Below, in pieces: positions 57,874 to 61,691 of a stretch of DNA of 64,000 bases (its first letter is position 1; each line of letters starts with the position of its first letter). The notes below the pieces were generated by a model. The model ran no database searches. It was given only the letters and a program-made list of their open reading frames with translations, and was not told the DNA's origin. The DNA comes from Candidatus Hydrogenisulfobacillus filiaventi (GTDB taxonomy: Bacteria > Bacillota > Sulfobacillia > Sulfobacillales > R501): assembly GCA_902809825.1 (NCBI GenBank), contig LR778114.1, positions 558,001-622,000 of the forward strand, given 5' to 3'. A program made the position numbers and the translations under genes.

Positions 57874-59301
<1,428 letters not shown>

Positions 59302-59313
59302 GGAGGCGGTACG

Positions 59314-59727
59314 ATGGCGGGCCATTTCCGGCTGCGGGTGCTGACCCCGGACCGGACCCTGTTCGACGGGCCGGTGGAAATCGTCATCGCCCGCTCCACG
59401 GAGGGCGAGATCGGGATCCTGGCCCACCATGCCCGGGTGATTACCCCGCTGGTGCCGCATGCCCTCTACTGGACCACCGACAAAGGGGAAAAGCAGATGG
59501 TGGTGGCGGCGGGCGGCTTTCTGGAGGTCGGGCCCGAAGAGACGGTGGTGCTGGCCAACGCCGCCGAATTTCCGCAGGAGATCGACCGGGCCCGGGCGGA
59601 GGCGGCCCGCAAGCGCGCCTTGGAGCGGCTGGAATCGCACGCGCCGGAGGTGGATGTGGCCCGTGCCCAGGCCGCGCTGGCCCGGGCGGAGGCCCGGCTG
59701 CAGGCGGTGAGCAGCCTCCTCCGCTGA
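59314..59727 (+). CDS. atpC: ATP synthase subunit epsilon
   Basis: A 137-residue subunit with the N-terminal beta sandwich (LRVLTPDRTLFDGPVEIV, then GEIGILAHHA) and a C-terminal helical hairpin (RAQAALARAEARLQAV), which inhibits ATP hydrolysis in relatives. ATG 59314 follows GGAGGC. It ends the atp operon; the following structured gap may modulate transcription into ywmB. Confidence 0.95.
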   Translation: MAGHFRLRVLTPDRTLFDGPVEIVIARSTEGEIGILAHHARVITPLVPHALYWTTDKGEKQMVVAAGGFLEVGPEETVVLANAAEFPQEIDRARAEAARKRALERLESHAPEVDVARAQAALARAEARLQAVSSLLR

Positions 59728-59742
59728 ACCCGGTTCCGTATA

Positions 59743-59812
59743 ACGGCCACCCTTCCGTGGAATAATCTGGATGACTCCCCCAGGGAGCACATCCGAGCGG
59801 AAGGGTGGCCGT
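59743..59812 (+). promoter_or_regulatory. 15-bp stem sequestering the ywmB ribosome binding site
   Basis: ACGGCCACCCTTCCG (59743-59757) is the exact complement of CGGAAGGGTGGCCGT (59798-59812). The second arm holds the ribosome binding site and ends on the base before the ATG at 59813. The 40-base loop holds a smaller hairpin CTCCC-CCA-GGGAG. If the leader is transcribed from upstream, translation would be blocked until the stem is opened. Confidence 0.75.
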
Positions 59813-60553
59813 ATGCGTATGCCACGGCGCAGATGGGGACGGGCCGGCCTGTGGGCGCTGGCGGTGGGCGGCATGACCTGGCTGGGGGTGAGCACCACGG
59901 CCACGGTGCTGGCGCCCCTGAAGACGGCGTTTGCGGCCACCGGTGCCCGTCCGGCGGGCTTCAGCCTGGACGCCTGGGAGGCCCTGCCGGGCGGGCGCGG
60001 CGGGCCGCCCGGGCTGGGAGCGGTGGTACAGACCACCCTCGCCCGCCTGTACCACGGCCATCCCCCCGCCGGGGTGGTCCCGGTGCGGCGGGGCGGGGCG
60101 GGTTGGGCCTCGGTCACGGCGACAGTGGCGGCGGCCGGCCTGACCACGCGCGTGATTGCGGAGCGCCTGAGCGACGGGCGGACCTATCTAGTGGTGGACC
60201 GCAGCCTGGCCGGCGGGTGGACGGGGCTGCCGGAAAGCCTGGCGGTGGTTTCCCGGGTGCTGGCCCCCTGGGGCGGGCACGTGTTCCTCAATCTGACCCT
60301 GGAGGGCCGCCGGCGAGCCGGGCGGTCCGGTCCGGAAGCGGTGGCCCGCCGGGCCCTGGCGGCGGTGGGGGCCCGTCCGGTGAGCGACCTGGTGCGTCCG
60401 GACCTGGTCTCCCTGGCCGGCTACACCCCCCTTATCGGCGCCAGTGACCGCCTGCACGGGCGCCGGGTGGACCTGCAGGCGGCGATCGTGCCCGACCCCG
60501 GGGGCGAGTGGCAGGTGTATGTTGGCACCCCGCTTATCACCATCACCTATTGA
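59813..60553 (+). CDS. ywmB: YwmB-family TATA-box-binding-like protein
   Basis: A 246-residue secreted or membrane-anchored protein with an N-terminal hydrophobic segment (residues 13-32) and the beta-rich YwmB/DUF1779 fold (VTATVAAAGLTTRVIAERL, then YTPLIGASDRLHGRRVDLQA). Function is unknown; in B. subtilis ywmB is located between the atp operon and murAA-spoIID-spoIIQ. Here murAA and spoIID are missing, and spoIIQ follows directly. ATG 59813 is fixed by the site AAGGGTGG, which is buried in the stem upstream. Confidence 0.7.
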   Translation: MRMPRRRWGRAGLWALAVGGMTWLGVSTTATVLAPLKTAFAATGARPAGFSLDAWEALPGGRGGPPGLGAVVQTTLARLYHGHPPAGVVPVRRGGAGWASVTATVAAAGLTTRVIAERLSDGRTYLVVDRSLAGGWTGLPESLAVVSRVLAPWGGHVFLNLTLEGRRRAGRSGPEAVARRALAAVGARPVSDLVRPDLVSLAGYTPLIGASDRLHGRRVDLQAAIVPDPGGEWQVYVGTPLITITY

Positions 60554-60568
60554 CGGCGGGCGGGTTTA

Positions 60569-60598
60569 GCCTTCCAGGCATGGGGAACACTGGAAGGC
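60569..60598 (+). promoter_or_regulatory. 9-bp stem sequestering the spoIIQ ribosome binding site
   Basis: GCCTTCCAG (60569-60577) pairs perfectly with CTGGAAGGC (60590-60598), enclosing a 12-base loop. The second arm contains GGAAGG, the ribosome binding site of the gene starting at 60605 (or GTG 60602). Confidence 0.7.
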
Positions 60599-60604
60599 GG
60601 GGTG

Positions 60605-61261
60605 ATGAGACAGATGGGTAGTGGGCGTTTTACGAGCGGCACGATGGCGGTGGCGTGGGGGAGCCCCTGGCAGGCGCAAATCTGGATGGCAGCCCGCCGG
60701 ACCCTGATCGCCGCCGGAGCCGGGCTGGCCCTGGCGGGGCTGGGCGGCGGCCTCTGGTGGGGCTTCCACCATGGGAGCCCGGCCGCGGTCCCCACCGGTG
60801 CGCCCCTGCGGCAGCACCGGGCCCAGGGCCCGGCGCGGGCGTTGCCCCATCCCACCGGCGCCGGCATCCTGATGCCGGTCACGGGGACGGTGGCGGCGGG
60901 CTTCGGCTGGCAGTACTCCACCGCCCTCAACCAGTGGTATTACAACCCGGGGATTACCATCGCCGCCCCCGCGGGCCGGCCTGTGCGGGCCGCCTGGGCG
61001 GGACGGGTGGCGGGGGTGACCGACACCGGACCGCTGGGCACGCAGGTGGTGGTGGATGACGGGGACGGGGTCCGCACCGTGTACGGGCACCTGGGCCGGG
61101 TGGACGTCCACGCCGGCGAGGCGGTGCGGCAGGGGCAGGTCCTGGGCACCGTAGGCGGGGCCAGCCTCTACAGCCGTCAGCAGCGGCCCCATCTCGACTT
61201 TGGCATCTACTATGGTTCGACGGCCTCCAACCCCTTGGCGTATTTGCACCCCTCGTCCTGA
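60605..61261 (+). CDS. spoIIQ: SpoIIQ-like protein with a degenerate M23 (LytM) domain
   Basis: A 218-residue protein. One transmembrane helix (about residues 34-52) is followed by a Pro/Arg linker and an M23 domain (residues 90-205). The metal-site motif, normally HxGxD, reads NPGIT at 114-118, so the first His and the Asp are lost, while His162 (VYGHLG) and His196 (PHLDFGI) remain. Loss of part of the zinc site is a property of SpoIIQ, the forespore protein that pairs with SpoIIIAH. Neighbourhood with spoIIID supports that assignment over an active peptidase. ATG 60605 has GGAAGGCGGGG. Confidence 0.78.
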   Translation: MRQMGSGRFTSGTMAVAWGSPWQAQIWMAARRTLIAAGAGLALAGLGGGLWWGFHHGSPAAVPTGAPLRQHRAQGPARALPHPTGAGILMPVTGTVAAGFGWQYSTALNQWYYNPGITIAAPAGRPVRAAWAGRVAGVTDTGPLGTQVVVDDGDGVRTVYGHLGRVDVHAGEAVRQGQVLGTVGGASLYSRQQRPHLDFGIYYGSTASNPLAYLHPSS

Positions 61262-61307: not shown

Positions 61308-61346
61308 ATGCTAGGGCGCTCGCACGCTCTAGCATTTTTACTTTTG
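61308..61346 (+). terminator. Rho-independent terminator after spoIIQ
   Basis: ATGCTAGGGCG (61308-61318) pairs with CGCTCTAGCAT (61325-61335), one G-U apart from perfect, with a 6-base loop, followed by TTTTACTTTT. It is the strongest terminator in the area and lies 46 bases beyond the spoIIQ stop. Confidence 0.85.
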
Positions 61347-61360
61347 CGGTCCCATATACT
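61334..61360 (+). promoter_or_regulatory. Possible sigma-E promoter of spoIIID
   Basis: CATATACT (61353-61360) resembles the sigma-E -10 (CATACAnT), and ATTTTT, 14 bases upstream within the terminator T-tract, resembles the -35 (ATATT). In B. subtilis spoIIID is transcribed by sigma-E in the mother cell. The match is by eye only. Confidence 0.45.
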
Positions 61361-61394
61361 CTAGCAAATTGCGGGGGGGGAAAGGGGCCGCAAC

Positions 61395-61691
61395 GTGAAG
61401 GACCATATCTGGCGGAGGGTTGTCGATATTGGCAACTATATCCTGCGTTACGGGGCCACCGTCCGGGATACCGCCAAGGTATTCGGTGTGTCCAAAAGCA
61501 CCGTCCACAAGGACGTCACCGAACGGCTGCCGAAGGTCAACGCCCAATTGGCCCTGGAGGTCAAGAAGGTGCTGGAGGTCAACAAGGCCGAACGCCACCT
61601 GCGTGGGGGCGAGGCCACCCGGCAGAAATTCCGCAATCACGGGCCCGACCGGGCCGAAGGCCGGGCGGGGACCCTGCCCCCCCTGCTGTAG
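61395..61691 (+). CDS. spoIIID: Stage III sporulation transcriptional regulator SpoIIID
   Basis: A 98-residue DNA-binding protein. MKDHIWRRVVDIGNYILRYG, then ATVRDTAKVFGVSKSTVHKD with the helix-turn-helix, and the basic LRGGEATRQKF are near-identical to those of B. subtilis SpoIIID, which controls mother-cell genes of the sigma-E and sigma-K regulons. The tail (residues 83-98) is variable. The GTG 61395 has GGAAAGGGG. This is a strong marker for endospore formation. Confidence 0.95.
   Translation: MKDHIWRRVVDIGNYILRYGATVRDTAKVFGVSKSTVHKDVTERLPKVNAQLALEVKKVLEVNKAERHLRGGEATRQKFRNHGPDRAEGRAGTLPPLL

Follow-up and report, generated by a model that had tools for sequence, protein, structure and literature searches.

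A forespore-type promoter spacer complementary to the ribosome binding site of ywmB (spoIIT), and its apparent recurrence across Bacillota

The locus raises the question of how a signal can be kept to one of two cells if its gene is also reached by transcription from elsewhere. The DUF1779 family includes Bacillus subtilis YwmB, now called SpoIIT. This forespore protein depends on sigma-F and assists SpoIIR in triggering the processing of pro-sigma-E (PMC4703394). While its sigma-F-dependent, forespore-specific expression was shown, spoIIT is transcribed both as part of a sigma-A operon and from a proven sigma-F promoter just upstream (PMC4703394). Since this operon is transcribed in growing cells, it has to be asked how the signal stays forespore-specific.

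We analyzed a member of this gene family, ywmB (synonymous with spoIIT), within a 64-kb stretch of DNA (the window). It lies in the order atpA-atpG-atpD-atpC-ywmB-spoIIQ-like M23 peptidase-spoIIID; apart from atpC, the atp genes were named by reading the translations. The source genome comprises 2.57 Mb in one contig and is the sole member of its family; the nearest relatives compared belong to the same order.

The ywmB stem and the promoter around its left arm

Upstream of ywmB, the arms ACGGCCACCCTTCCG and CGGAAGGGTGGCCGT are exact complements that form 15 bp around a loop of 40 nt (Table 1). The original prediction, made from the letters alone, had described this perfect stem, the ribosome binding site (RBS) in its second arm ending just before the start codon and a separate small hairpin in the loop, and all three were borne out, the last by the minimum free energy (MFE) structure. 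The 3' end of the right arm abuts the ATG, and the arm contains GGAAGGGTGGC, the best Shine-Dalgarno (SD) sequence for this start codon (-7.6 kcal/mol with the anti-SD). Also the view that so long an arm would hardly arise by chance held: apart from the ywmB stem, no perfect inverted repeat of at least 15 nt (loop up to 100 nt) occurs in the window, and first-order Markov sequences gave a chance rate of 0.075 such repeats per 64 kb. The MFE of the RNA 59700-59830, a calculation proposed together with the original prediction, is -66.2 kcal/mol (z -4.7), a stability unmatched by any shuffle. RBS sequestration was also compared with upstream shuffles for the 37 genes of the window that are led by an SD; ywmB came out on top with a z of 8.0, the runner-up reaching 2.9.

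Table 1. Coordinates of the features at the ywmB (spoIIT) locus, numbered from the first letter of the window.
Feature	Position	Strand	Remarks
atpC, possible source of read-through RNA	59314..59727	+	Pfam ATP-synt_DE_N, ATP-synt_DE
-35 element GTATA, sigma-F-type promoter	59738..59742	+	same element and spacing in most orthologues of the order
Left arm = 15-nt promoter spacer	59743..59757	+	complement of 59798-59812; exactly between -35 and -10
-10 element TGGAATAAT	59758..59766	+	matches TGGAACAAT of relatives; also the de novo motif TGGCAATAAT found phylum-wide
Small hairpin inside the loop	59769..59794	+	MFE structure
Expected transcription start, ~59773	59772..59776	+	inferred, ~7 nt past the -10 element
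Right arm with RBS, SD core GGAAGGG 59799-59805	59798..59812	+	
ywmB = spoIIT (DUF1779)	59813..60553	+	Pfam PF08680, E 3.4e-9; orthologues of the order 36-45% identical

One block, GTATGAA...GTGGAACAATCTGGTA, is strongly conserved in the upstream regions of the ywmB orthologues of the order. With a fixed-spacing scan, a -35/-10 pair of the sigma-F type was found in 31 of 34 orthologues, mostly as GTATG-N15-TGGAACAAT, and the version of the window reads GTATA-N15-TGGAATAAT. It thus agrees with promoters of the sigma-F regulon, which have a GTATA-like -35 and a GGNNANAAT-like -10 element about 15 nt apart. Spacer and left arm coincide position for position: the -35 element directly precedes the left arm, and the -10 element falls within the loop. 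Conserved elements in this arrangement would direct the start of transcription, at the position expected from the -10 element, to the loop between the arms and yield an RNA without the 5' arm. A sporulation-stage promoter that gives an unstructured leader, one of the roles proposed originally, is therefore well supported by the conserved sigma-F-type promoter around the left arm. A start downstream of 59757, named originally as a finding that would speak against the prediction, probably holds for the sigma-F mRNA only, and the device would work precisely in this way. Taken together, we consider it likely that one stretch of DNA serves both as a forespore promoter for sigma-F and as part of a hairpin masking the RBS.

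A search for the sigma-F promoter pattern in the source genome returned 11 matches, few of which are plausible besides those at ywmB, spoIIQ and spoIIIG, versus 6 with the reversed pattern. The loop also holds an ATG at 59771, in frame with ywmB, that would lengthen YwmB by 14 residues in a read-through RNA; its SD is weak (-3.3 kcal/mol), and it should be missing from the sigma-F mRNA.

Pairing within the order and across the phylum

To follow the pairing through the order, the energy needed to open the SD was determined for 27 orthologues and compared with shuffles of the spacer, shuffles of the upstream region and an exchange of upstream segments between species. For the 21 orthologues that entered the combined tests, with the window and near-duplicates left out, the combined p was 1.2e-8 for spacer shuffles and 1.2e-12 for upstream shuffles, values that are approximate since the lineages are not independent. 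When segments were permuted among species, p was 5e-5 for both opening and duplex energy, which is the floor of 20000 permutations. The pairing segments themselves differ outright between lineages, such as GATCGCCTC/GAGGCGATC in L015, CTCCTTC/GAAGGAG in L018 and TCCGTGGA/TCCACGGA in L010, and the stem sequence of the window is not common to its order-level relatives. Because the arms lie at differing places, one covariation alignment of all orthologues is impossible; shuffle and swap tests were used instead, together with two small family alignments. As judged from these sequences, the pairing between spacer and RBS is kept while the sequence changes, and the comparison with relatives suggested along with the original prediction turned out in its favor.

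The survey was then extended to Bacillota as a whole. A Pfam search of 249 genomes, sampled evenly across the phylum, detected the spoIIT gene in 121. Significant sequestration of the RBS by upstream sequence was seen in 43 of the 92 spoIIT genes with usable starts, compared with 9 of 84 controls drawn from other genes at the same loci (Fisher 1.5e-7, likewise approximate). SD strength contributed to the choice of starts in both groups, its cut-off being stricter for the controls. Significant masking is missing in about half of the spoIIT orthologues. A close co-directional upstream gene had no significant effect and does not explain which orthologues have masking.

De novo motif discovery in 82 non-redundant upstream regions delivered TGGCAATAAT with a log-likelihood of 239, compared to about 22 for shuffles. 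It exceeds the 5% threshold in 57 of these 82 regions but in only 2 of 84 controls. In 44 of the 57 carriers, a GTATA-like -35 element (at least 4 of 5 positions matching) lies at the right distance. Across the phylum the motif sits between the arms, and in the 57 carriers the RBS pairs mainly with sequence 5' of the inferred start (0.57) and less with sequence 3' of it (0.16). Of the two family alignments, one has five pairs that are changed on both sides with pairing retained, and the other has one such pair. From these comparisons, the same promoter-RBS design, written in different letters, apparently recurs at spoIIT across Bacillota.

Read-through RNA, forespore RNA and competing explanations

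In an RNA reading through from upstream, the RBS is predicted to lie in a stable helix. Opening the SD core costs 20.5 kcal/mol in this RNA versus 3.7-6.7 kcal/mol in RNAs starting at 59772-59780, from which the long stem is computationally predicted to be lost. Some structure remains in the short RNA, as opening the SD together with the AUG takes 11-14 kcal/mol. With a cost of about 20 versus 4-7 kcal/mol, translation of the two transcripts should differ greatly, and the model predicts that the long RNA is translated poorly and the short one well. Read-through itself is plausible, since the stop codon of atpC lies 10 nt 5' of the -35 element and no terminator-like site was found between them or elsewhere in 59000-61000. 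In six orthologues (L006, L016, L017, L018, L023, L024), however, atpC and the spoIIT promoter are separated by an intrinsic terminator, a feature missing from the genome of the window. These terminators count against a lock on read-through RNA, as do the orthologues without significant masking, the lack of a significant effect of a close co-directional upstream gene and the residual structure of the short RNA.

We consider the following course of events likely. Read-through RNA from the atp operon would carry the promoter spacer as left arm, which would pair with the spoIIT RBS and block translation. In the forespore, the sigma-F RNA polymerase would start within the loop, and the resulting mRNA, devoid of the left arm, would have an open RBS, so that SpoIIT would be made in the forespore only. 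The original suggestion of a coupling to read-through from atpC, taken as an activation of ywmB, is unsupported, as the pairing should silence read-through RNA. We give roughly even chances to the most far-reaching form of this idea: a phylum-wide translation lock in which selection acts on the promoter DNA of spoIIT, and partly of spoIIR, to match the complement of the gene's RBS. Translation would then be limited to RNA initiated by sigma-F, and the sigma-E-activating signal would be barred from the wrong cell. If this is true, the promoter spacer bears both the promoter spacing and an anti-RBS code, and a lock embedded in the promoter would answer the question of forespore specificity at the level of translation.

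Other explanations have to be weighed against such a lock. The hairpin might serve the atp operon, as a stabilizer of the 3' end, an RNase III site or a weak terminator, and overlap the RBS only by coincidence. Its position 16 nt after the atpC stop and the lack of another terminator-like site in the scanned stretch fit this role, but the G+C-rich stem followed by a T-run that marks an intrinsic terminator is not present: ATGCGTATG comes after the right arm. In relatives, moreover, the pairing partner is always the RBS region, the arms flank the sigma-F -10 element, and L018, L023 and L024 keep the pairing despite a true terminator upstream. We thus regard a function for the atp operon as improbable, albeit the best of the alternatives. 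Marginally less credible is that the stem only tunes the gene's own mRNA, either with a transcription start 5' of the left arm or with a trans-acting factor that opens the stem. A precedent exists in the second, small RBS hairpin of B. subtilis sigG, which is located in its own mRNA and reduces translation 2-4 fold (PMC5942855). However, the conserved promoter puts the start past the left arm and accounts for the conservation of the loop sequence; an Rfam scan of 59500-60100 matched no family, the best chance match being far under the gathering score, and no evidence points to the RNA-binding factor that had been considered originally. Least probable, by a small margin, is a chance product or mutational relic of template switching without a role. 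Copying can yield perfect arms, and the absence of the stem sequence from order-level relatives would fit such an origin, but the low expectation for such repeats in 64 kb falls much further over an RBS, relatives achieve the pairing through unrelated sequences, and phylum-wide it exceeds that of control genes.

Known systems and other sporulation genes

The principle of a translation lock acting on read-through RNA is known. In phage T4, the long early RNA of gene e (likewise soc, 49 and I-TevI) folds the RBS into a helix, while promoters inside the 5' strand of this helix yield RNA devoid of the helix, which is translated, as was experimentally proven (PMC3014915). In contrast to spoIIT, gene e is a single phage gene with a phage late promoter instead of a sigma-F promoter, and what is proven there is predicted here. 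A further, proposed precedent is B. subtilis sigG (spoIIIG): according to PMC5942855 (citing Masuda 1988, Sun 1991), a hairpin of 20 bp or more was proposed to block translation of spoIIGA-sigE read-through RNA, whereas transcripts from the sigma-F/sigma-G promoter cannot adopt it. It shares with spoIIT that a forespore gene would be masked by a hairpin in read-through RNA only, yet it is a different gene. B. subtilis spoIIT, compared by its published description, belongs to the same family and has a sigma-F promoter directly upstream as well as vegetative operon transcription, whereas its upstream gene is ywzB and not atpC and masking is unreported (PMC4703394). Our literature search, which had most subscription papers outside its coverage, retrieved no report of RBS masking at spoIIT or spoIIR. 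While masking of read-through RNA is thus an established principle, we did not find its apparently phylum-wide use at spoIIT, and partly at spoIIR, reported. With its recurrence across Bacillota, what had been an old idea on a single gene, sigG, would become a general rule that can be tested and that carries a sequence signature.

Besides spoIIT, further sporulation genes were compared. The RBS of spoIIR, whose product is active in the same signalling step, was masked in 7 of 23 cases (p <=0.05) and that of gpr in 0 of 16 phylum-wide, both samples being small and containing related genomes. In L238, L240 and L243 it is the promoter of spoIIR that pairs with the RBS (GTATAATTCCCA with TGGGGGATTATAC in L240). 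Five members of the order from family f2 (G001, G003, G007, G009, G011) gave no match to ywmB/spoIIT or spoIIR, while spoIIIG was above the cut-off in all of them except G003; either the signalling genes were lost or divergent ones were missed.

Within the order, spoIIIG (34 orthologues) and spoIIQ (17) served as negative controls and displayed no excess over spacer shuffles. As both lie behind sigma-F-type promoters, the test is not merely responding to the type of promoter, and together with gpr they indicate that masking is not a trait of every forespore gene. The arrangement proposed for sigG was thus non-significant at spoIIIG in this order except in the window's own genome (L094), where spoIIIG combines a sigma-F-type promoter with a masked RBS (12.3 versus 5.7 kcal/mol, p 0.02). 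In one genus (L068, L069, L073, L076, L079) the spoIIIG promoter spacer holds an anti-SD run such as GTATATCCTCCTCCTCCTTTGGTGATACT; a shuffle that keeps composition cannot judge such spacers, and masking of spoIIIG may be underestimated there.

Upstream of spoIIQ in the window, at 60564-60600, a perfect hairpin of 9 bp (GCCTTCCAG/CTGGAAGGC, about 60569-60599) straddles the sigma-F-type promoter GTTTA-N14-GGGAACACT, and relatives carry GTTTGAA...GGGCACACT at the corresponding place. It was withdrawn as a second case: its right arm would extend over the place where transcription is predicted to begin, and the homologous MANRRTT start of relatives suggests that spoIIQ begins near 60685 and not at 60602-60605. 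The runner-up for RBS sequestration in the window is spoIIID (p 0.026). There, at 61330-61395, GCGGTCCC immediately precedes a sigma-E-like CATATACT and is able to pair with GGGGCCGC at the RBS, and spoIIID may represent the same design with a mother-cell promoter.
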